Assembly (NCBI GenBank): GCA_947642455.1
Contig: CANRSN010000012.1
Span: forward strand, 1 to 58,140
Reading direction: 5' to 3'
DNA length: 58,140 bases
DNA from: an uncultured Clostridiaceae bacterium
GTDB taxonomy: Bacteria; Bacillota; Clostridia; TANB77; CAG-508
Shown: one piece after another, positions 2,552 to 57,980 of the stretch
Position numbering within the stretch: position 1 is the first letter of the stretch
Layout: each line of letters starts with the position of its first letter
The notes under the pieces: generated by a model
Database searches by the model: none
Seen by the model: only the letters and a program-made list of their open reading frames with translations
What the model was told of the DNA's origin: nothing
Made by a program: the position numbers and the translations under genes

Positions 2552-2768
2552 AAAAAAGAGTACAATTTATTATAATTCATAGTTTGAAATTAGAAGTCAA
2601 TAGGCAATATAATATTTATTTTGTCGAAGTTTTTTACTGGCTTCGCCAATCGCTCTGGGTCATGTCCACTTTGGGAGCTTCCCTGCGCAAAACTTCTAAA
2701 AATAAATATTATATTGCCTAGATAGATAATTAATATCTATGAATTATAATAAATTGTACTCTTTTTTG
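2552..2768 (-). mobile_element. MITE-like foldback element, copy 1 (arm type A)
   Basis: A 217-bp palindromic element between bofA and the next gene. The outermost 31 bp (AAAAAAGAGTACAATTTATT onward) are perfectly inverted at the other end. Inside are AATATAATATTTATTTT arms flanking the shared core, here in reverse orientation (CTGGCTTCGCCAATCGCTC, GGGTCATGTCCACTTTGGG, CTTCCCTGCGC). It has no ORF. Related copies are at 5608, 34545, 43815, 46361, 55051 and 55288. Confidence 0.8.
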
Positions 2769-5466: not shown

Positions 5467-5607
5467 ATGTAAAACCTCCATAATTTTATATGTTATTATT
5501 CAGATTAATAAAAAATCTAAATAGTATTTGTATATTATATTACTATAAAAGTTAAAAGGTGGCAAGTAATACAATTTAAGTTTTAGTATTTTTGCTTGAA
5601 ATTCAGC

Positions 5608-5820
5608 AAAAAAGAGTACAATTTGTTACATTTCACAGATATCACATTCGCTTAAGTACTATAATATTTATTTTAACAAAGTTTTGCGCAGGGAAGCTCC
5701 TACAGTGGACATGACCCAGAGCGATTGGCGAAGCCAGTAAAAAACTTTGTTAAAATAAATATTATAGTACTTATATAATTTTAATTTTAATCTGTGAAAT
5801 GTAACAAATTGTACACTTTT
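5608..5820 (+). mobile_element. MITE-like foldback element, copy 2 (arm type A)
   Basis: Lies in the 617-bp gap between glmS and the gene at 6084. Outer arms AAAAAAGAGTACAATTTGTT and their complement end at 5820. The inner arms run ATAATATTTATTTTAACAAAGT. The core is GCGCAGGGAAGCTCCTACAG, GTGGACATGACCCAGAGCG, CGAAGCCAGTAAAAAACT. It is preceded by ATTCAGC, as at copy 8. Confidence 0.8.
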
Positions 5821-5823
5821 GTT

Positions 5824-5869
5824 ATATAATAGGAAAGTATAACAATTTGTTATACTTTCCTATTATATA
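5824..5869. repeat. 46-bp near-perfect palindrome, GGAAAGTATAACA family
   Basis: TATATAATAGGAAAGTATAA reads into its own complement around AACAATTTGTT. It is followed by TATAAAAGCTTCGCCAAAC, a tail shared with other members at 13307, 23528 and 56811. It may act as a terminator or be a REP-like repeat. The rest of the gap up to 6004 holds only a short inverted repeat, CAAAATTGCTAAAGCAATTTTG. Confidence 0.7.
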
Positions 5870-6004
5870 AAAGCTTCGCCAAACGTTCCACACAAAATTG
5901 CTAAAGCAATTTTGGCGGCGAACAAAGACGAGGCATGAAAAGTAATCTAAAAGGTCTAAATGCTTTAATCATGCCTCTTTTGTTCTTGTTTAAATTTACA
6001 TAAA

Positions 6005-6540: not shown

Positions 6541-6665
6541 GAAAGTTACAACCGCTCTTGGTCATGTCCACTGTGGGAGCTTCCCTGCGCAAAACTTCTT
6601 TAAAATAAATATTATATTGCTTAAAATATATAATTTTACAAACTGTGAATTTTAACTAGTTGTTA
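6541..6665 (-). repeat. Truncated MITE-like foldback element, copy 3
   Basis: Holds the reverse core (GGTCATGTCCACTGTGGGAG, CTTCCCTGCGCAAAACTT) and one arm (AAATAAATATTATATTGC, then TGTGAATTTTAA). The other arm and the CTGGCTTCGCCA end are missing. The 428-bp gap 6432-6859 otherwise holds only A/T-rich sequence. Confidence 0.75.
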
Positions 6666-7867: not shown

Positions 7868-7881
7868 AATAAATCCTTTCT

Positions 7882-7942
7882 GAACAATAGGGACGATCCT
7901 TTTTGTTCGGATTCCAAACAGAAAGGATCGTCCCTATTGTTC
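7882..7942. repeat. 21-bp perfect inverted repeat between spoVAD and spoVAE
   Basis: GAACAATAGGGACGATCCTTT (7882-7902) is exactly complementary to 7922-7942, with a 19-nt loop containing GTTCGGATTCC. It could attenuate transcription or stabilise the mRNA between the two spoVA genes. The GGACGATCC/GGATCGTCC core has a loose relative in the 40164 hairpin (GACGAACC). Confidence 0.8.
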
Positions 7943-7960
7943 GGAATCCAAAATATCAAT

Positions 7961-13266: not shown

Positions 13267-13306
13267 CATTTATTTGATATCACATGTATTGTTAGGGTAT
13301 TTATAG

Positions 13307-13342
13307 TTAGGAGAGTATAACAGTTTTGTTATACTTTCCTAG
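13307..13342. repeat. Palindrome of the GGAAAGTATAACA family
   Basis: TTAGGAGAGTATAACA / TGTTATACTTTCCTAG around a short centre, then TATATAAAAGTTTTGCTAAA. It is the same palindrome-plus-tail layout as at 5824 and 56811. It follows the 59-aa gene and may terminate it. Confidence 0.65.
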
Positions 13343-13450
13343 TATATAAAAGTTTTGCTAAATGTCAAGCAATTAGATAGAAACAGAGCCAATACAGAGA
13401 TATGTATAAAATAAAAAAAATATCATAATAATAAAATCAAAGGAGAAAAG

Positions 13451-19365: not shown

Positions 19366-19371
19366 TTAGGT

Positions 19372-19497
19372 TAAGTTTCGGTACTTTTTTGAAATAACAA
19401 GTTTTAGGCTTAAAATATCTCCTACCAGAATATTATAGTACTTATATAACTCTGATTTTAATCTGTGAAATGAAACAAATTGTACTCTTTTTCACTG
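19372..19497. repeat. Hybrid foldback remnant (arm B joined to arm A)
   Basis: The first half, AGTTTCGGTACTTTTTTGAA to CCAGAATATTA, matches the arm of copy 7 (type B). The second half, TAGTACTTATATAA to GTGAAATGAAACAAATTGTA, matches the arm of copy 2 (type A). The core is gone. Two arm types meeting in one remnant indicates recombination between copies. Confidence 0.7.
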
Positions 19498-19644: not shown

Positions 19645-20157
19645 ATGAATAATAACGTATTGGTATTTCATGAAGCGACAATAATTAGAGCTACTTTAGA
19701 GAAAGATAAAAAAGCATTTTATTTTGAATGTATGTACAATGAAACAAATAGTGTAAGTAATGCTGATATTGGAATAATACCAATTAGCTGCAAATCTGGT
19801 TACAAAAGATTTTTCAAGATGTTTGGAATAAAAATTACCCATAAAACAGCTTCCAAAAAAGGAAATTTGATTGAAAAAGAAGGTATTAAATGTAATCTTA
19901 TATTCTATGATGGAGCAATTGTAGCAATAACACCTGCAAATGTAAATCTTTGGGTCGCAAACTACTTTGAATTTACTAGGGGAGAAATTTGTTCCTTACA
20001 GCAACTTAAGGAATTATTAAAAGAGGAATTGCAGAAAGAGAAATTATTGCAAATAGAAAGATATAATGAAGAAATTAAACGGGTAAAAGAAGAACAAGAA
20101 GAACTTAAAAGAGCGTGTTTTTCAATTCTGATATGCAATATGAAATTTAACATTTAA
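19645..20157 (+). CDS. Unknown protein with C-terminal coiled coil
   Basis: A 170-residue soluble protein of unknown family. The first 115 residues look beta-rich (VLVFHEATIIRATLEKDKKA, FYFECMYNETNS, CNLIFYDGAIVAITPANVN). Residues 120-155 form a Lys/Glu coiled coil (LLKEELQKEKLLQIERYNEE, IKRVKEEQEELKR). A short hydrophobic end follows (CFSILICNMKF). AGGAGGAGGAAAAG precedes the ATG. Monocistronic, with promoter and terminator. Confidence 0.55.
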   Translation: MNNNVLVFHEATIIRATLEKDKKAFYFECMYNETNSVSNADIGIIPISCKSGYKRFFKMFGIKITHKTASKKGNLIEKEGIKCNLIFYDGAIVAITPANVNLWVANYFEFTRGEICSLQQLKELLKEELQKEKLLQIERYNEEIKRVKEEQEELKRACFSILICNMKFNI

Positions 20158-20217
20158 TAAAGTAACATACTATGAAAGTATAACATAATTTTATATTTTT
20201 CTAGCATAAAATAAAAG

Positions 20218-20256
20218 CACATATAATAAATCGGTAAGATATTATATGTGTTTTTA
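20218..20256. terminator. Hairpin terminator between convergent genes
   Basis: CACATATAATA / TATTATATGTG stem followed by TTTTTAGTTTTTTT. A degenerate GGAAAGTATAACA repeat (20172-20202) precedes it. Confidence 0.7.
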
Positions 20257-23485: not shown

Positions 23486-23527
23486 GAGAATATAAACTAT
23501 ATAATGGTGGATATTCTCTATTTTTTA
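23486..23527 (+). terminator. Hairpin terminator
   Basis: GAGAATAT / ATATTCTC arms followed by TATTTTTTATAT. Confidence 0.6.
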
Positions 23528-23583
23528 TATACTAGAAAAGAATAACAAATTGTTATGATTTTTTGGTATATAAAAGCTTTGCA
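23528..23583. repeat. Palindrome of the GGAAAGTATAACA family with tail
   Basis: ACTAGAAAAGAATAACAAAT then TTGTTATGATTTTTTGGTA, followed by the shared TATAAAAGCTTTGC tail. A later CAAAATTGCTAAAGCAATTTT also recurs after the palindrome at 5824. Confidence 0.6.
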
Positions 23584-23710
23584 GAACATTCACACAAAAT
23601 TGCTAAAGCAATTTTAACTGTGGAAATAAAGACCAAAAGCTATATAATAAGAATAATAAATAAAAAGACTAATATAATATTATAAAGTAGAATATGAAAG
23701 GGTGTATTAC

Positions 23711-26074: not shown

Positions 26075-26128
26075 AAATAACCCAATAGAAATTAGAGTTA
26101 TCACTTTAATTCTTTATTGGGTTATTTG
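26075..26128. terminator. Hairpin terminator
   Basis: AAATAACCCAATA / TATTGGGTTATTT around a partly paired centre. It lies between the 48-aa gene and the convergent Cys-rich gene. Confidence 0.7.
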
Positions 26129-26135
26129 GAATGTT

Positions 26136-26166
26136 AGGAAAGTATTACAGATTGTTATACTTTCCT
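26136..26166. repeat. Palindrome of the GGAAAGTATAACA family
   Basis: AGGAAAGTATTACAGATTGT then TATACTTTCCT, directly beside the 3' end of the minus-strand gene at 26176. The usual TATAAAAGCTTTGC tail is absent here. Confidence 0.6.
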
Positions 26167-26175
26167 ATATTAGTT

Positions 26176-26634
26176 CTAACAATCAGAACATTCTTCAGAA
26201 CATTCACATTCACTAGCTTCACTTCTTAAACAATCTTTTTTACAAGGAATTTCATGTTTACAATCCATTTTAACACCTTTTAAACATTTACCATCATGTT
26301 TAACAGAAGTACATACTTTACAGTGTTTTACGTGATCTACCCATACTTCTATAGCATAAACTTTATTTGCACATAAAGGACCAAATACAAAGTCACCATC
26401 TTTATCAGTAAAAGTATGAGATACAGGTCTTCTTTCTTCTTTTCCACATTCACATACTATTTCTATTAATTTAACTACTGCATCACATACAGGATCACCA
26501 TAACAATCCTTTATAACACCATAAATAACATTTCTATTATCTTCTGGTAAACGAATATCAAGATCAAATTGTTTTCCTGAAGCTATAAGTCCATCAACCT
26601 CCACAACTGGACACATATTTTTATCGTATTCCAT
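26176..26634 (-). CDS. Cys-rich protein with carboxypeptidase-regulatory-like (CNA-B-like) domain
   Basis: A 152-residue protein. Residues 15-110 form a transthyretin-like beta domain (VIYGVIKDCYGDPVCDAVVK, then FTDKDGDFVFGPLCANKVYA). The C-terminal 45 residues hold most of the many cysteines (CKVCTSVKHDGKCLKG, CKHEIPCKKDC, ECECSEECSDC). There is no signal peptide. Proteins of this layout occur among Clostridia and may be spore coat or metal-binding; that is inference. The start at 26634 follows AAAAAGGGGTATTGTATT. Confidence 0.65.
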   Translation of the reverse strand: MEYDKNMCPVVEVDGLIASGKQFDLDIRLPEDNRNVIYGVIKDCYGDPVCDAVVKLIEIVCECGKEERRPVSHTFTDKDGDFVFGPLCANKVYAIEVWVDHVKHCKVCTSVKHDGKCLKGVKMDCKHEIPCKKDCLRSEASECECSEECSDC

Positions 26635-31988: not shown

Positions 31989-32816
31989 ATGGATATAGCA
32001 AAATTCAAATCAATAATAGAAGCAATATTATTTGCAGCAGGAAGAGAAGTAAATATAAAAGAATTAATGTCTGCTTTAGAGTTAGGGTCAGACGAGATAT
32101 TTGCTATTATAGATAATATGAGAATAGACTATGAAGAAAGAGGAATAGAAATTATAAAAATAAATGATAATTTTCAACTTGTAACAAGAAAAGAATATTA
32201 TGAATACATATATCCAATATTAGATAAAAGGTCAAAGCCAAATTTATCAAATGCAGCAATGGAAACATTAGCAATAATAGCATACAATCCCAAAATAACA
32301 AGAGCACAAATAGAGTCAATTCGTGGAGTAAATTCAGATGGAACAATGTACAAATTATTAGAATACAATTTAATACAAGAGGCAGGGAAATTAGATGCCC
32401 CAGGAAAGCCAACAATGTACACAGTAACAACTGAGTTTATGAAAATGTTTGGATTTACAAGTTTAGATGAATTACCAGAACTTCCAAGATACAAAATAGA
32501 TGAAAATCAACAAATAGTAATAGATGACATTATAGCAGAGCAAAAAATAGAAAAAGAGAATAATCAAGAAGAAAATGAGGAAACACAAATAGAAGATGCA
32601 GAAGACGACAAAAAAGAAAATGAGGAAACACAAATAGAAGATGCAGAAGACGACAAAAAAGAAAATGAGGAAACACAAATAGTAGATGCAGAAGATGACA
32701 AAAAAGAAAATGAGGATATACAAATAGTAGATGCAGAAAACAATAAAAGAGAAATAGAAAATACAATACAGGAGGCTCCAAGCCCCGAAAGGGAAGAAAT
32801 AATAGAAGAAAACTAA
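31989..32816 (+). CDS. scpB: Segregation and condensation protein ScpB with repeat tail
   Basis: Partner of ScpA and SMC in chromosome condensation. Residues 1-180 are the paired winged-helix domains, with KSIIEAILFAAGREVNIKEL, SNAAMETLAIIAYNPKITRA and QIESIRGVNSDGTMYKLLEY. Normal ScpB ends near here. This protein continues with four tandem 15-residue repeats (ENEETQIEDAEDDKK type, 32571-32750) and a tail ending EEIIEEN. scpA is not next to it, unlike in many Firmicutes. proS follows 29 bp downstream. Confidence 0.92.
   Translation: MDIAKFKSIIEAILFAAGREVNIKELMSALELGSDEIFAIIDNMRIDYEERGIEIIKINDNFQLVTRKEYYEYIYPILDKRSKPNLSNAAMETLAIIAYNPKITRAQIESIRGVNSDGTMYKLLEYNLIQEAGKLDAPGKPTMYTVTTEFMKMFGFTSLDELPELPRYKIDENQQIVIDDIIAEQKIEKENNQEENEETQIEDAEDDKKENEETQIEDAEDDKKENEETQIVDAEDDKKENEDIQIVDAENNKREIENTIQEAPSPEREEIIEEN
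32571..32750 (+). repeat. Four 45-bp tandem repeats inside scpB
   Basis: Units start at 32571, 32616, 32661 and 32706. The first two are almost identical at DNA level and the fourth has diverged (ENEDIQIVDAENNKR). All keep the frame, so copy number can change without breaking the gene. Confidence 0.9.
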
Positions 32817-34534: not shown

Positions 34535-34544
34535 AAAATATCAG

Positions 34545-34760
34545 CAAAAAGAGTACAATTTATTACAATTCATAGATATTAATTATCTATCTAGGCAATA
34601 TAATATTTATTTTTAGAAGTTTTGCGCAGGGAAGCTCCCACAGTGGACATGACCCAGAGCGATTGGCGTAGCCAGTAAAAAACTTCGACAAAATAAATAT
34701 TATATTGCCTATTGGTTTCTAATTTCAAACTATGAATTGTAATAAATTGTACTCTTTTTT
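34545..34760 (+). mobile_element. MITE-like foldback element, copy 4 (arm type A, best-preserved copy)
   Basis: Outer arms: AAAAAGAGTACAATTTATTA and AAATTGTACTCTTTTTT. Inner arms: GGCAATATAATATTTATTTT and its complement. Core: GCGCAGGGAAGCTCCCACAG, TGGACATGACCCAGAGCGAT, CGTAGCCAGTAAAAAACTTC. It is preceded by ATCAGC. It lies between the convergent proS and DUF4364 genes. Confidence 0.82.
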
Positions 34761-34772
34761 ACCTATTTATGA

Positions 34773-37137: not shown

Positions 37138-37250
37138 TTTAAGTTTCGGTATTTTTGAAATAGCAAGTTCTAGTCTAATTTACTAAAAATTTACATAGAA
37201 TATTAATATTTATTTTTAGAAGTACTCTGAACATGTCATAAATTATAGAA
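37138..37250. repeat. Half foldback element (type B arm, core broken)
   Basis: AAGTTTCGGTATTTTTGAAA, AGCAAGTTCTAGTC, then ATTAATATTTATTTTTAGAA and a corrupted core (GTACTCTGAACATGTC). The second arm is missing. It lies in the 219-bp gap between divergent genes. Confidence 0.7.
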
Positions 37251-42207: not shown

Positions 42208-43803
<1,596 letters not shown>

Positions 43804-43814
43804 TATATAAATAG

Positions 43815-43985
43815 TTCTTTTGTGAGAGGTAAGCAAAATTTATATTCTGCTGTGTTACTAATATTTATTTTTAGAAGTTTTGCGCAGAGAAGCTCCTAAA
43901 GTGGACATGACTCAGAGCTACCCACGAAGCCAGTAAAAAACTTCTAAAAATAAATATTAGTAACACAGCAGATAGTATAATACTT
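43815..43985 (+). mobile_element. MITE-like foldback element, copy 5 (arm type C)
   Basis: The 33-bp perfect inner arms start GCTGTGTTACTAATATTTAT. The outer parts are AAGCAAAATTTATATTCTGC and CAGATAGTATAATAC. The core is more diverged: GCGCAGAGAAGCTCCTAAAG, TGGACATGACTCAGAGCTAC, CCACGAAGCCAGTAAAAAAC. It fills most of the 343-bp gap after metG. Confidence 0.78.
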
Positions 43986-44146
43986 TTGAATTGTTACAAG
44001 AGCTAAATGAATTTTCAATAAACGTTCTACACAAAATTCACATAAAAAACACAATGAAAAATTACAATAGTATATTATAATAAACATAATGTATACCTAT
44101 TATTACTATAGTTTTGGCGTTGCCTTAGAAAGGAATATGATTAAAA

Positions 44147-44847: not shown

Positions 44848-46356
44848 ATGGATAAGCTAAAAGAGAAATTTAAGTCTGTTAGAATTAAACTATTTTTGAC
44901 ATTATGTATAGTTGTAACTATTATAGTATTATTTTTAGTAATTATTAATAATGTAGTATTAGAAAGTTTTTATATGTATTCAAAAACAAAAACAATAAAA
45001 GAAGCATATATAACAATAAATGATTATTATAATAATTTAGAATCAGGAACAGAAATAAATGAAGAGCTAGATGAAGCATTAAAGAGAATTGCAATTAAAA
45101 ATGATTTTGATATACTAATAGAAGATGGAAAAAGTATAACAATATTTAGTTCAGATCAATCTTTTCAATCAGCTATACAAAAAATAAATGAAATAATGAA
45201 TCAAAATCTTAAAAATCCAGAAAAAAATAGAGTAATATTTTCAGATGCTAAAATGAAAATAACTAGATTAATAGATGAAAAAAATGCAATAAATTATATT
45301 TTATTAACAGCAACACTAGATAATGGTTATTTACTTTATATAAGAATACCAATAGCATCTATACAAGAAAGTGTAAAAATATCTAATAATTTATTATTAT
45401 TAATTGGTGGAATTTCTATTCTAATAGCAGGAATATTAGCATCATTTATATCAAGGAAATTTACAGAACCTATATCAGAACTAAATGATATTGCTAAGAA
45501 AATGTCAAAATTAGATTTTAGTAAAAAGTATAGAATAAAGGATACTGATGACGAAATAAATACTTTAGGCAAAAGCATAAATACAATGTCTGACAAATTA
45601 GAAGGTACTATAAAACAATTGAGAGCAACAAATTTAGAATTAGAAAAAGATATAGAAGAAAAATCGCAGATAGATGAAATGAGAAAACAGTTTATTTCAG
45701 ATGTATCACATGAACTAAAAACTCCAATAGCCTTAATTCAAGGCTATGCAGAAGGTTTGGTAGAAAATGTTAATTCAGATGAAGAATCTAGAAGGTTTTA
45801 TGCAGAGGTAATATTAGATGAATCCAATAAAATGGATATGTTGGTAAAACAATTATTAGAACTAATGAAGTTAGAATATGGAAAAAGAGATTTTGATAAT
45901 AAAGAATTTGATATTGTAGAATTAATTAATGAAGTAATTAGAAAATGTAAATTGATGTTGGAAGATAAAAATATTCAGATTGAATTTGCAGTAAATACAC
46001 CTGTATATGTAGTGGCAGACAGTTTTTATATTGATCAGGTAGTTACTAATTATTTTACTAATGCAATTAAGCATGTTAAAAATATAAATGGAAAAAATCT
46101 CATTAAAATAGATGTTAAACAAAATCTTCAAAATGGTAAAATTAGAATTAGTATATTTAATACAGGAGATAATATTGAAGAAGAAGATATACAAAGAATT
46201 TGGAAAAGGTTTTATAAGATAGATAGCTCTAGAAATAGAGCAGATGGTGGAACAGGTATTGGTTTAGCATTAGTAAAAGCTATTATGAATAATTATAATA
46301 ATGATTTTGGTGTTATTAACCATGAAGATGGAGTAGAGTTCTATTTTGAATTATAG
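44848..46356 (+). CDS. Sensor histidine kinase
   Basis: A 502-residue membrane kinase. TM1 is at about 13-36 and an extracellular sensor domain spans about 37-180. TM2 is at about 183-203, followed by HAMP (EPISELNDIAKKMSKLDFSK) and HisKA with FISDVSHELKTPIALIQGYA (His288). The ATPase domain has N-box NYFTNAIKHVKN, GTGIGLALVKAIM and a closing VEFYFEL. Residues 240-285 form a coiled stalk. Partner of the upstream regulator. The signal is unknown. Confidence 0.92.
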   Translation: MDKLKEKFKSVRIKLFLTLCIVVTIIVLFLVIINNVVLESFYMYSKTKTIKEAYITINDYYNNLESGTEINEELDEALKRIAIKNDFDILIEDGKSITIFSSDQSFQSAIQKINEIMNQNLKNPEKNRVIFSDAKMKITRLIDEKNAINYILLTATLDNGYLLYIRIPIASIQESVKISNNLLLLIGGISILIAGILASFISRKFTEPISELNDIAKKMSKLDFSKKYRIKDTDDEINTLGKSINTMSDKLEGTIKQLRATNLELEKDIEEKSQIDEMRKQFISDVSHELKTPIALIQGYAEGLVENVNSDEESRRFYAEVILDESNKMDMLVKQLLELMKLEYGKRDFDNKEFDIVELINEVIRKCKLMLEDKNIQIEFAVNTPVYVVADSFYIDQVVTNYFTNAIKHVKNINGKNLIKIDVKQNLQNGKIRISIFNTGDNIEEEDIQRIWKRFYKIDSSRNRADGGTGIGLALVKAIMNNYNNDFGVINHEDGVEFYFEL

Positions 46357-46360
46357 TTTA

Positions 46361-46593
46361 CTTAAGTTTTCAGTATTTTTTGAAATATCAAGTTTTAGGT
46401 TATATATTAAAAGTTTACACAGAATATTAATATTTATTTTTAAGAAGTTCTGCGCAGGGAAGCTCCCACAGTGGACATGACCCAGAGCTACCCACGAAGC
46501 CAGTAAAGAACTTTGCAAAAATAAATATTCATATTCGTGTATGCTGTTCTTTTATTCTAAAACTTGATATTTCAAAAATACCGAAAACTTAAA
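46361..46593 (+). mobile_element. MITE-like foldback element, copy 6 (arm type B)
   Basis: Outer arms AAGTTTTCAGTATTTTTTGA and CAAAAATACCGAAAACTT with AAGTTTTAGG / CTAAAACTTG. The core is GCGCAGGGAAGCTCCCACAG, TGGACATGACCCAGAGCTAC, CCACGAAGCCAGTAAAGAAC. It starts right after the kinase stop codon and fills most of the 345-bp gap. Confidence 0.8.
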
Positions 46594-48739: not shown

Positions 48740-51127
48740 ATGGGAAATATAGTTTTATTAGATGATTTAACTATAAACAAAATAGCAGCAGGTGAAGTTA
48801 TAGAAAGACCAGCATCAGTAGTAAAAGAAATGGTAGAAAATTCAATAGATGCAGGAGCAACAAATATAAACATAGAAATAAAAAATGGTGGAATATCATA
48901 TATAAGAATAACAGACAATGGAAAAGGAATTATGCAAGATGATATGGAAATAGCATTTGAAAGACATGCAACCAGTAAAATAAGAAGTGCAGATGACTTA
49001 GAAATGGTAAAATCTATGGGTTTTAGAGGCGAGGCATTAGCAAGTATTGCAGCAATAGCCAGAGTAGAAATGACATCAAAAACAAAAGAAAGCGAAATGG
49101 GTTATAAAGTAATAGTAGAAGGTGGTAATATAATAGACAAGCATGAAGAAGGTTGCCCAAATGGTACAAGTATTACAGTAGAAAATTTATTTTATAATAC
49201 ACCAGTAAGATATAAATTTTTAAAAAAAGATTTTACAGAAGCAGGTTATATTGAAGATGTTGTAACAAGAATAGCATTAATAAATCCAGATGTAGCAATA
49301 AAATTAGTAAGCTCTGGAAAAACAATAATACAAACATCTGGAACAGGAGATATGAAAAGTGTAATATACAATATATATGGAAAAGATATTGCAGAAAATA
49401 TATTAAATGTAAATTATAATTATGAGGACATAAAAATAGTTGGAGTAGTAGGAAAGCCATCAATAGCACGTTCAAATAGATCAAATCAATTATTTTTTGT
49501 AAATAAAAGATATATAAAAGATAAAACATTAACAGGTAGTGCAGAACAAGCATTTAAAGGGATGATAACTATAGGAAAATTTGGATTTTTAGTATTAAAT
49601 TTAGAAATAAATCCACAAAAAGTAGATGTTAATGTTCACCCAGCAAAGCTAGAAGTTAGATTTGAAGAAGAAGGAAAAGTATTTAAGGCTGTATATCATG
49701 CAATTAAAGATACTTTATTAAAGGGAGACCTAGTTACAGATACAGAAAAAGAGGAAGTGTATGAAGATGCTTCTGAACCAAAAGATATGTTAGGCTTATT
49801 CCAAAAGTTCAGAGAAGAAAGTACACAAACTACAAACAACTCTCAAGAAAGTAAACCAGAAAATACTAAACTTAATGAAATAATGAGCAAAATGCAGGAA
49901 ATGAGAGCAGATTTAGAAAAACAAGGTTATGTACCTAAAAATATGAAAGATATTATAAAAGAAGAAGAGACACCATATGGCATGAACATAGAATTAAATA
50001 GAGAAAATATTAGCACAGAACAGGAAAGTACAGGAAGTGAAACTCAAGAAGGTAGCAGTTCAGAAATAGGAAAAGCAGAAAGTGAAGGTCAGTGGAATAG
50101 TGGAATAGAACAAGAAAAAATAGATGGAGAAGGACAAGGCAATAGTGGAATAGAACAAGGAAAATTAGAAGATGAAGGTCAAGGAAATAGTGGAATAGAA
50201 CAAGGAAAATTAGAAGGCGAAGGACAAGGCAATAGTGAAATAGAACAAAGAAAATTAGAAGATGAAGGACAAGGCAATAGTGGAATAGAACAAAGAAAAT
50301 TAGAAGATGAAGGTCAAGACAATAGTGGAATAGAACAAGAAAAAATAGAAGGCGAAAGTCAAGAAAATACTAAACTAGAAAATCTAAATAATGAAAACAA
50401 CAAAGACAGAAATTTTGATAATATATATGATTCTATATTTGGAAGAATAAGGACAAATGAAAAAGATGATGGAATTATACAAATAGATGCAAAGCCAGTA
50501 ACGATACAAGAAAATGTATCAATGTTTGAAGGAAAATCAGAGTATAATAAACAAGTATACAAATTTATAGGGATTGCATTTTCAACATATATAATGATTG
50601 AAATGGATAAGGAATTGTACATAATAGACCAACATGCAGCACATGAAAGAATACTATATGAAAAAGTAAAAGAAAATTATTATAGTGATGAGAAAAAAGA
50701 ATCACAACTAATGCTATTACCAGACATCATAACTCTTACAAACAAAGAAATGGGAATTGCAAAAGATAATATGGAAATGTTTAGAAAAGCAGGTTTTGAA
50801 TTAGATGAATTTGGAGAGAATACAATAAAATTAACAGGAGTACCTAACATTTGTATAGACTTAAATACAAGAGATTTATTTTTAGAGACATTAGATGAAA
50901 TAAATACAGTAGCAAGAACAGCAAAACAAGAAATAGAAGAAAAGTTTATTGCAACAGTAGCATGTAAAGCAGCAGTTAAAGCAAATATGGCTTTAACTAA
51001 AGAGGAGGTAGACAGTTTAATGGAAGAATTATTAGTACTACCTAATCCATTTACATGCCCACATGGAAGACCAACAGCTATAAAAATGACAAAAACAGAT
51101 ATAGAAAAGAAATTTTCTAGAAGATAA
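48740..51127 (+). CDS. mutL: DNA mismatch repair protein MutL with repeat-expanded linker
   Basis: Couples mismatch recognition to strand cutting. The ATPase domain (1-330) has KIAAGEVIERPASVVKEMVE, NSIDAGA, DNGKGI, GFRGEALASIAAIAR and NLFYNTPVRYKFLKK. The C-terminal endonuclease domain (about 600-795) has the metal site DQHAAHERILYEK and CPHGRPTAIKM, so the protein can nick DNA itself. The linker is unusually long and holds six 15-residue repeats (about 449-538). No mutS is in the window. AGATGGAGGAAAATAG precedes the ATG; the next gene is 68 bp downstream. Confidence 0.95.
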   Translation: MGNIVLLDDLTINKIAAGEVIERPASVVKEMVENSIDAGATNINIEIKNGGISYIRITDNGKGIMQDDMEIAFERHATSKIRSADDLEMVKSMGFRGEALASIAAIARVEMTSKTKESEMGYKVIVEGGNIIDKHEEGCPNGTSITVENLFYNTPVRYKFLKKDFTEAGYIEDVVTRIALINPDVAIKLVSSGKTIIQTSGTGDMKSVIYNIYGKDIAENILNVNYNYEDIKIVGVVGKPSIARSNRSNQLFFVNKRYIKDKTLTGSAEQAFKGMITIGKFGFLVLNLEINPQKVDVNVHPAKLEVRFEEEGKVFKAVYHAIKDTLLKGDLVTDTEKEEVYEDASEPKDMLGLFQKFREESTQTTNNSQESKPENTKLNEIMSKMQEMRADLEKQGYVPKNMKDIIKEEETPYGMNIELNRENISTEQESTGSETQEGSSSEIGKAESEGQWNSGIEQEKIDGEGQGNSGIEQGKLEDEGQGNSGIEQGKLEGEGQGNSEIEQRKLEDEGQGNSGIEQRKLEDEGQDNSGIEQEKIEGESQENTKLENLNNENNKDRNFDNIYDSIFGRIRTNEKDDGIIQIDAKPVTIQENVSMFEGKSEYNKQVYKFIGIAFSTYIMIEMDKELYIIDQHAAHERILYEKVKENYYSDEKKESQLMLLPDIITLTNKEMGIAKDNMEMFRKAGFELDEFGENTIKLTGVPNICIDLNTRDLFLETLDEINTVARTAKQEIEEKFIATVACKAAVKANMALTKEEVDSLMEELLVLPNPFTCPHGRPTAIKMTKTDIEKKFSRR
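50084..50353 (+). repeat. Six 45-bp tandem repeats inside mutL
   Basis: In-frame units start at 50084, 50129, 50174, 50219, 50264 and 50309, each of the type EGQGNSGIEQGKLED. Units 2-5 differ by a few bases only (GGTCAAGG / GGACAAGG, GGA/AGA). The unit length equals that of the scpB repeats, but the sequence differs. Confidence 0.9.
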
Positions 51128-54538: not shown

Positions 54539-54988
54539 ATGTTAACACCATTAGATATAGAAAATAAAAAATTCTCAAAGCAGATGATGAATGGTTATAG
54601 TGTTGATGAAGTTGATGAATTTTTAGATGAACTAACAAATGATTATGAAAAAGCATATAAACAGAGCAATGAATTAAAAGTGAGAGTTGAAGAATTAGAA
54701 AAAAGCTTAGTGCACTATAAAACTATAGAAGATACATTACAAAGTACTTTAGTAATGGCTCAAACAACAGCTGAAGAAGTAAGAGATGTTGCAAGACAAC
54801 AAGCAGAGCAAATTATAAAAGATGCAGAAGGAAATGCTAGAAAATCAGTAGAAGATTTAGGTCAAGAAATATTACTAAAGAAAAAAGAGTTAGAAGATGT
54901 AAAAAAACAATTTGATGTTTACAAAGCGAAAATGGAGTCTTTACTAATTTCACAATTAGAATTAATAAAAGATTTAAATAAAGAATAA
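54539..54988 (+). CDS. divIVA: DivIVA-family cell division/polarity protein
   Basis: A 149-residue coiled-coil protein. The lipid-binding N-terminus is LTPLDIENKKFSKQMMNGYS, followed by VDEVDEFLDELTNDYEK, the family hallmark. Coiled coils run to residue 149 (SNELKVRVEELEKSLVHYKT, VARQQAEQIIKDAEGNARKS). It binds curved membrane at septa and poles. GATGGAGGAAAAAT precedes the ATG; a terminator follows directly. Confidence 0.94.
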   Translation: MLTPLDIENKKFSKQMMNGYSVDEVDEFLDELTNDYEKAYKQSNELKVRVEELEKSLVHYKTIEDTLQSTLVMAQTTAEEVRDVARQQAEQIIKDAEGNARKSVEDLGQEILLKKKELEDVKKQFDVYKAKMESLLISQLELIKDLNKE

Positions 54989-55025: not shown

Positions 55026-55050
55026 AAAATATTAATTGATTTAACTTTTG

Positions 55051-55277
55051 AGTTTCGGTATTTTCTGAAATAGCAAGTTTTAGGCTATATTTATTAAAAA
55101 TTTACACAGAATATTAATATTTATTTTTAAAAAGTTCTGCGCAGGGAAGCTCCCAGAGTGGACATGACCCAGAGCTACCTACGAAGCCAGTAAAGAACTT
55201 TGCAAAAATAAATATTAATATTCTGGTAAGAAATACTTTAAGCCTAAAACTTGCTATTTCAGAAAATGCCGAAACTT
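55051..55277 (+). mobile_element. MITE-like foldback element, copy 7 (arm type B), first of a tandem pair
   Basis: Outer arms AGTTTCGGTATTTTCTGAAA and TTTCAGAAAATGCCGAAACT, with TAGCAAGTTTTAGGCT / AGCCTAAAACTTGCTA and AGAATATTAATATTTATTTT inside. Core GCGCAGGGAAGCTCCCAGAG, TGGACATGACCCAGAGCTAC, CTACGAAGCCAGTAAAGAAC. Together with copy 8 it fills most of the 691-bp gene-free stretch between divIVA and rsmD. Confidence 0.82.
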
Positions 55278-55287
55278 AGAATTCAGC

Positions 55288-55502
55288 AAAAAATGGTATA
55301 ATTTGTTACAATTCATAGATATTAATTAACTATCTAAGCAATATAATATTTATTTCTAGAAGTTTTGCGCAGGGAAGCTCCCAGAGTGGACATGACCCAG
55401 AGCGATTGGCGAAGCCAGTAAAAAACTTCGACAAAATAAATATTATATTGCTTATTGACTTCTAATTTCAAACTATGAATTGTAACAAATTGTACCATTT
55501 TT
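55288..55502 (+). mobile_element. MITE-like foldback element, copy 8 (arm type A), second of a tandem pair
   Basis: Outer arms AAAAAATGGTATAATTTGTT and AACAAATTGTACCATTTTT, inner arms AAGCAATATAATATTTATTT. The core is identical to copy 7 up to CCAGAGC and then carries GATTGGCGAAGCCAG as in the other type A copies. It is preceded by ATTCAGC and followed by another AATTCAGC. Confidence 0.82.
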
Positions 55503-55521
55503 GGCTTAGAATTCAGCTGTG

Positions 55522-56751: not shown

Positions 56752-56802
56752 AAAGTCTGTAACAGATTCTTGACATTTATATGTCTAATCTTTTACAGAC
56801 TT
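56752..56802. terminator. Large hairpin terminator
   Basis: AAGTCTGTAACAGATT..GACAT pairs with ATGTC..AATCTTTTACAGACTT. It lies between the convergent coiled-coil and HD genes. Confidence 0.7.
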
Positions 56803-56810
56803 ATATTATA

Positions 56811-56860
56811 TACTAGGAAAACATAACAAATTGTTATGCTTTCCTGATATATAAAAGCTT
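56811..56860. repeat. Palindrome of the GGAAAGTATAACA family with tail
   Basis: TACTAGGAAAACATAACAAA then TTGTTATGCTTTCCTGATAT, followed by ATAAAAGCTTTGCC. It is the cleanest palindrome-plus-tail copy besides 5824. Confidence 0.7.
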
Positions 56861-56911
56861 TGCCAAACATTTTTATTTAAAATGCACAAATATCCATTAA
56901 AATTCTTTGAT

Positions 56912-57662: not shown

Positions 57663-57749
57663 TGAATTGTAACCATTCAGAGGTAAGCAAAATTTATATT
57701 CTGCCTAAATATTAATAACACAGCAGATAGTATAAGACATCTGAATAGA
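57663..57749. repeat. Foldback remnant (type C, core precisely missing)
   Basis: AGAGGTAAGCAAAATTTATA TTCTGC joins directly to CTAAATATTAATAACACAGC AGATAGTATAAGAC. In copy 5 the same two flanks enclose the rest of the left arm and the core. The 415-bp gap 57566-57980 otherwise holds only A/T-rich sequence. Confidence 0.65.
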
Positions 57750-57980
57750 CTCTCTGAATTTTTTTAGAAAAAGACTTGCAAAACCTAGAGCAAAATGTTT
57801 TAATATAAAAGAAAAGCATTTTATTTAAAGATATTCTAAAAAATGTGCAAAACAAAAAAGCATAATAAGCAAATTGAAAATTTAATAAAGAGAATTTTAC
57901 TATAGTCAAAAATAAAAAGTAGTGTAAACTATGAATAAATATGTAGGAAAATAACAGAAACAATCAAAGGAGGAATAAAA

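Follow-up and report, generated by a model that had tools for sequence, protein, structure and literature searches.

Small palindromic repeats scattered through the genome analysed here form a real, genome-wide and modular MITE-like system with a shared core, and one that is larger than the first-pass annotation stated. At least five families of arms surround this core. The core occupies the tips of many hairpins and has relatives in other hairpin families of related genera, and so acts as a component passed from one mobile element to another. The reading preferred here, to which we give a probability of roughly 0.5, is that the system is MITE-like, modular and non-coding, its core unit occupying the loops of several mobile palindromes. 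Among the options first raised for the core, namely a structured RNA, a recombinase site and the cargo of a modular element, the last is the best.

The window is the whole stretch of DNA that was analysed, 58,140 bp with 27% GC. It belongs to a genome of 2.22 Mb in 85 contigs, designated G000; G-numbers denote genomes and L-numbers denote loci. All eight positions originally claimed for copies were borne out: a sequence model recovers exactly eight in the window, seven of them full and one cut at model position 55, matching the seven near-complete copies and one truncated copy first described. The elements and their remnants are as follows.

2552..2766, minus strand: near-complete element of arm family A; core 2629-2688
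5604..5826, plus strand: element of arm family B, 223 bp; core 5686-5745
6550..6656, minus strand: truncated copy whose arm is C-like and whose core breaks off after about 40 nt; limits set by eye
19371..19497, no strand assigned: chimera without a core; left arm D-type, right arm B-type
34542..34764, plus strand: element of arm family A, 223 bp, the subject of the first-pass annotation; core 34624-34683
37138..37221, no strand assigned: D-type half element, lost before the core
43825..43997, plus strand: element of arm family E; core 43882-43941, limits set by eye
46364..46590, plus strand: element of arm family D, 227 bp; core 46452-46511
55050..55277, plus strand: element of arm family D, 228 bp; core 55139-55198
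55284..55507, plus strand: element of arm family A; core 55367-55426
57669..57752, no strand assigned: E-type element without core and inner arms

By their arms, the copies first placed at 2552, 34545 and 55288 belong to group A, that at 5608 to B, those at 46361 and 55051 to D, and that at 43815 to E, and the cut copy at 6541 is C-like. The core motifs first reported hold overall, but the copy at 34545 has CGTAGCC and the copy at 43815 has GCGCAGAGAAGC and GACTCAG. Genes in the window include those for BofA, DivIVA and DUF4364 proteins, in line with a host that is a Clostridia-like bacterium of the gut. The element at 34542..34764 sits between convergent genes, one for a tRNA ligase (proS-like) and one for a DUF4364 protein; the window's proline-tRNA ligase has its closest named relative, at 75% identity, in a 'Clostridia bacterium' MAG from roe deer rumen. 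The E element at 43825..43997 directly follows a methionine tRNA ligase-like ORF (42214-43803), the D element at 46364..46590 directly follows a histidine kinase ORF (44848-46356), and the second D element comes after a DivIVA ORF (54539-54988). This last element adjoins the A element at 55284..55507, the flanks of which by eye have TTAGAATT in common. Fold-back is certain, and the 216-nt copy at 34545 has a folding energy of -87.2 kcal/mol, where 200 shuffles average -33.6 (z -13.8).

A typical element is mostly about 180-230 bp long. Its outer arms are followed by AT-rich inner arms (often AATATTTATTTT), which lead into the core of about 60 nt, and the arms recur in mirror image on the far side. 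The core has the layout GCGCAGGGAAGCTCCCANAGTGGACATGACCCAGAGC, then a 7-nt block that is either GATTGGC or TACCCAC, then GAAGCCAGTAAAAAAC. Each of the 103 full copies has a single core. The conserved core of the first-pass annotation is therefore present, but its length is about 60 nt rather than 65: it measures 60 nt in 100 of the 103 full copies, with exceptions of 59, 70 and 72 nt (L012, which has extra A residues directly after its core, is counted as 60). The elements are short and non-coding and carry terminal inverted repeats, as MITEs do, with end sequences that include CAGCAAAAAAGAGTAC, GTTACAATTCACAG and TTTAAGTTTCGG. A coding origin of the core was considered and rejected; all six reading frames are interrupted by stops somewhere among 99 cores, with totals of 12 to 105 per frame, and the frame richest in synonymous codon differences, on the minus strand (109 of 294), has 20. 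The five arm families, A to E, were assigned by the nearest inner arm, and L117 shows a further arm type. The arms do differ between groups A, B, C-like, D and E, but not all pairs are unrelated, as had been proposed for at least three of them: A and B share the outermost ends CAGCAAAAAAGAGTAC and are thus related, and D and E look unlike A/B.

The core pattern matches the genome 97 times at up to three mismatches, and the reversed-pattern control matches zero times. A sequence-only model built from 52 copies gives at least 145 matches at E <= 0.01, a lower bound because 150 of 1363 candidates were scored. The genome is also larger than the 26 other genomes of its genus that were compared (1.2-2.0 Mb), and has an estimated contamination of 5.6%.

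The core is far less partitioned among arm families than the arms that enclose it. For 93 of the 103 full cores (those of length other than 60 nt, with a poor arm match or a short flank, and L012 with its extra A, being left out), cores from one arm family differ by 8.9% and cores from different families by 10.0% (Fst 0.109); for the arms the corresponding figures are 18-21% and 45-46% (Fst 0.606 and 0.547). The core thus does not decay as fast as the arms. Its Fst still lies above all 300 label permutations, so mixing is incomplete. In 42 of the 93 copies, the core 55-mer is also present in another arm family. Both states of the 7-nt block occur in all five families, and a rare variant of it, CTAGGGC, is found in one B copy and one D copy. 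On trees of the arms within each family (96 of the 103 copies, about 120 columns), the 7-nt block has switched state 18 times or more (4+3+4+2+5), 22 copies being in the minority, and the orientation of the core relative to asymmetric arms has switched 12 times or more (1+2+3+0+6), here with 13 copies in the minority; these counts are rough, as the trees had no shuffled control and one flipped copy, L053, had zero margin. Together with the relatives in other genera described below, these results uphold the original idea of a constant core with exchangeable arms. Exchange of the core between arm families is evident as a pattern, and the manner in which the core changes hosts is what we infer from it. 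Separately, two copies in this genome (C31), L089 and L020, lie less than 2 kb apart with identical left flanks, but the right arm is of type E in one and type A in the other, as would follow from a recombination that exchanged a single arm.

The elements also move as whole units. Target duplications, which point to whole-element transposition, were sought in the 87 of 110 copies with recognisable ends, the ends being set by family, and the 23 copies without ends were set aside. In A/B, 20 of 43 copies have 9-bp flanks that match at 8 or more of 9 positions, where 2000 shuffles gave 0.68 copies on average and 4 at most, and duplication lengths of 7, 8 and 10 fall within the permuted range. For E, the 8-bp flanks match at 7 or more of 8 positions in 4 of 10 copies (permuted maximum 3). 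Family C has a mean of 4.44 of 8 flanking positions matching (permuted maximum 4.22), with 7 or more matching in 4 of 18 copies, equal to the permuted maximum of 4. Elements of A/B, C and E therefore transpose as whole units, leaving 9 bp in A/B and 8 bp in C and E; that is, different end families leave different duplications around the same core. For D the signal is weak, and a 9-bp duplication is no more than suggested (the mean is 4.31, and permutation reached 4.62; 8 or more matching in 3 of 16 copies against a permuted maximum of 3). By eye, no IS-sized pair was seen among the 88 A/B ends listed in this genome, and hence no autonomous element with such ends, in a draft of 85 contigs that may lack a parent IS.

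A possible but rather doubtful explanation for these patterns is descent from one ancestral MITE, the ends of which diverged under different transposases, and the cores of which stayed alike, and switched allele and orientation, by gene conversion among copies and inversion across the inverted arms, without insertion into loops. Inner arms with TATTTATTTT in common in most families fit such descent, as do parts of an end motif around GTTAC-ATTCA-AG seen by eye in A, B, C and E. So do the core alleles common to several families, the small but non-zero core Fst, and the existence of chimeras, which include the window's 19371-19497, L113 (C left, E right) and L020 (E left, A right). However, the arms of A and D, and likewise those of D and E, disagree at about half of all positions, and the corresponding cores differ by 8% and 13%, so that conversion tracts would need to end abruptly close to the boundary of the core. 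Two further observations would each need insertion or a long exchange: the D elements at the centre of B arms in L075 and L247, and the occurrence of the same unit of about 140 bp in two unlike palindromes from two genera.

That unit comes from relatives of the core in other genomes. A BLAST-type search of the genus's 26 other genomes, with a query of 105 bp and all candidates scored, gave no match. The sequence model matches 6 of 145 genomes of the family (at most 31 candidates scored per genome) and 4 of 385 genomes in a sample of the order (at most 12 per genome), G000 included in both; these searches used stricter filters, so that copy numbers there are rough and absence is weak evidence. 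Real matches outside G000 are found in G136 (17), G109 (6), G116 (3), G129 (1) and G366 (4), and a match in G083 (E 0.0019, L219) was set aside by eye as likely chance. The distribution is patchy. The search of other Clostridia proposed at the outset thus yields divergent cores in four other genera; in two of these the arms are different, and in the remaining two the ends resemble family C. G136 has arms of the AGCCGTTTTGGAGTAATATTT type, and G109 and G129 have AT-rich arms with a AAGCGACGCG junction. The outer ends of G116 and of most G366 copies resemble family C, and by eye two G366 copies have flanking repeats, which at L265 is a perfect one of 8 bp, ATCTTACT, the length that family C would predict, and at L259 one matching at 7 of 8 positions; L269 is less clear. 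The exact core pattern has no match among named genomes, a set that may lack the window's own record; neither a window copy nor the G136 unit matches a phage or plasmid, and viral contigs have no match to two exact patterns.

When the left and right flanks of each G136 copy were compared as inverted repeats, 7 of 17 copies proved to lie in locus-specific palindromes, with scores of 76, 73, 59, 46, 40, 33 and 31 against a control maximum of 28 over 103 permuted pairs; the other 10 fall below that maximum. (The count of 17 reflects 18 items listed, L226 matching on both strands.) Three copies, L235, L222 and L229, look related, and their scores of 23, 22 and 21 are within the control. By eye, the outer palindromes resemble a REPIN-like family, with inverted arms (e.g., TGTGTCAAAGGGGACGTAGAAAAATGACACAA and its mirror), GTAG in some loci and a loop of roughly 40 nt. 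Related palindromes without the core exist in G136 at the six loci displayed, and one further pattern match is a core-bearing copy. The motif of these outer palindromes has one match, with one mismatch, in G000, and none in G109. The G136 unit of about 140 bp aligns end to end, from TAGCCG to GAAAAT, with a unit inside C-like ends in G366 (score 153), and two other C-type G366 copies score at most 59. No target duplication was detected at the G136 core unit (the best of 540 offset and length settings gave z 3.4, 0.412 against 0.387), and insertion is therefore undocumented at a junction. The same genome also has REPIN-like palindromes with long near-perfect arms and loops of about 40 nt at L296, L301 and L304, and a Y1 transposase was undetected in it.

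In G000, where 107 of the 110 copies entered the same comparison, three (L032, L108 and L117) have locus-specific outer palindromes scoring above the permuted maximum of 37; L053 and L067 look alike by eye and score 32 and 28. Among the stretches with A/B ends and no core that were inspected by eye, there was no genuine empty palindrome, and these stretches resemble products of deletion between short repeats. On several occasions, then, a whole element or the core unit has come to lie at the tip of another palindrome. Since insertions elsewhere would break the palindrome, the loop location may partly reflect survival and not loop-aimed insertion.

The modular reading can be put as a mechanism. 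Its constant part is a core unit of about 60 conserved nucleotides, closed by AT-rich inverted inner arms and located at the loop end of several different palindromes. In a first step, which the duplications show for A/B, C and E and only weakly for D, the composite palindrome transposes whole by means of its own outer ends, leaving the duplication of its family (9 bp for A/B; 8 bp for C and E), with transposases that presumably act in trans. In a second step, seen as a pattern, the core unit changes hosts, such that the same core alleles circulate among arm families in either orientation. The most likely route would be insertion of the core unit, or of a whole element, into the exposed loop of another palindrome. 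The product would remain a palindrome with new ends, movable by the transposase of its host, and recombination between cores would add to the mixing. As the main route, hairpin-tip insertion is the best inference, at about even odds, with recombination as its main rival. A bolder version can be offered tentatively, namely that the core unit is itself mobile, a non-coding 'hyperparasite' seeking out the hairpin tips of MITEs and REPIN-like repeats, riding on their transposases, and crossing host families and genera.

DUF772 is usual in transposases of the IS1182 family. For IS1272, a member of that family, structure-dependent targeting of inverted repeats has been proposed in the available text of PMC5678879, and transposition of the kind proposed there, in which the transposase recognises a hairpin and not a sequence and leaves no target duplication, would suit those G136 copies that lie within palindromes without a duplication. 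It is nonetheless an improbable account of the system as a whole, given that A/B, C and E do leave duplications, that the target palindrome is kept here instead of being replaced, and that DUF772 was undetected in five of the six core-bearing genomes tested (G000, G136, G109, G116 and G129), with two matches in G366. A resident DUF772 transposase was accordingly rejected as the general agent. So was dependence on Y1/RAYT transposases, as Y1 was undetected in core-bearing G136 and G109; G000 has two (one over the cut-off), G116 two, G129 one and G366 six, and a congener that lacks the core, G017, has nine.

A different view would make the core a functional RNA or protein-binding site under host selection, for example in 3' untranslated regions, with the arms as passengers. 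By a mechanical ORF call, 97 of 110 copies in G000 have an ORF on either side, 7 fall inside an ORF (minimum 70 codons) and 6 are at an edge. Where the neighbouring genes are in tandem, the centre of the core follows the upstream stop codon by a median of 135 or 177 bp, which is in keeping with such a role. Against it, the strand of the core is not fixed with respect to genes: the two neighbours are both opposite in 43 cases, both on the same strand in 25, divergent in 19 and convergent in 10. Copies are thus mostly intergenic, with a mild strand bias, and many in this genome are decayed, which speaks against host selection, as does the lack of a match in the 26 congeneric genomes.

An alignment of 44 sequences, drawn from 61 stretches kept (59 distinct), has a mean column identity of 72% across genera, a sequence constraint that favours a functional site. 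Compensatory changes also favour it, and they are concentrated in the core-closing helix, which is part of the arms; four of its five pairs have 15, 15, 7 and 1 two-sided cells, and two pairs are unpaired in 12 of the 44 sequences. Inside the core, covariation was looked for and rejected, since the inner helix shows one-sided changes only. The last hairpin has single two-sided cells and varies mostly by whole replacement, as GGCGAAGCC, GGAGCGAAGCGACA, GGAGCCGAAGGCGACA or GGAGCAATCTTTGATTGCGACA; a close version of the GGAGCAATCTTTGATTGCGACA hairpin occurs once in G000, at L052. The suggestion of a structured RNA made in the first-pass annotation does not gain from this pattern, and a functional RNA or binding site appears quite unlikely. 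Rfam, to which the core might have belonged, gives no match at the gathering threshold in the window and none at E <= 1 over 20 loci from five genomes, and a single copy had only matches below the gathering score. The outcomes named in the first-pass annotation as refuting, an Rfam match or a core that decays at the pace of the arms, thus did not arise.

It is by their common ends that MITE families are usually defined. The elements described here resemble MITEs in being short and intergenic, without an ORF, with terminal inverted repeats and target duplications, but it is the middle that is common and the ends that are of several families, and no parent IS was found for the A/B ends. ERIC sequences are imperfect, intergenic palindromes with a well conserved centre. 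They are 127 bp long with TA at their ends, according to the available text of PMC2229807; unlike this TA target, duplications here are of 8-9 bp, and there are several kinds of arms. By analogy and from the available text of PMC3049150, BOX of Streptococcus suis is the closest known case of unlike ends around a common middle; there, boxA/boxC and boxE/boxF pairs flank the same type of boxB, and BOX repeats have been found inserted into one another. Compared by description in that text, BOX of Streptococcus (boxA-boxB-boxC) is likewise composite, fold-back, intergenic and MITE-like. BOX has a variable number of tandem middle modules, whereas here there is one core per element, flanked by at least five families, with 8- or 9-bp duplications and a core common to several genera. 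In contrast to REPIN/RAYT systems, the core unit does not track with Y1 transposases; GTAG repeats are listed in other phyla in the available text of PMC3733652, where the word Firmicutes does not occur. Palindromes serve as landing sites of ISs in the case of REP sequences (PMC1525189) and of IS1272 (PMC5678879), as far as the available texts go. Palindrome-targeting ISs thus share with this system the use of palindromes as targets of other elements, but they carry a transposase gene, whereas the insert here is non-coding, about 130-230 bp long, and leaves the target palindrome in place. No account of this core was found in a literature search that most subscription papers lay beyond, and that took in the available text of MITE reviews and repeat papers (PMC10969869, PMC2229807, PMC3733652 and PMC3049150); the single paper in which a 13-nt piece occurs is a PCR paper.

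The comparison bears on how such repeats are named. Small bacterial repeats are usually classified by their ends, but the conserved and shared part here is the middle, which crosses end families and genera, and an end-based classification would therefore split one system into many. With at least 145 copies, a single genome offers material on how palindromes exchange parts and on whether hairpin loops are preferred landing sites.

The window also holds other repeats. A second small palindromic repeat (AGGAAAGTATAACA...TGTTATACTTTCCT, followed in several copies by TATATAAAAGCTTYGC) has six copies at 60% identity or more, the first of which adjoins the B element at 5608:

5815-5887: second palindromic repeat
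13294-13366: second palindromic repeat
20156-20228: second palindromic repeat
23518-23590: second palindromic repeat
26120-26192: second palindromic repeat
56799-56871: second palindromic repeat

At 7878-7946 there is a hairpin with a 34-nt arm and a 1-nt loop that includes GGGACGATCCTTTTTGTTCG, and related sequences lie near the copies at L018 and L090. Lastly, 45-bp tandem repeats at 50017-50425 (ORF 48740-51127) and at 32541-32765 (ORF 31989-32816) belong to repetitive proteins.
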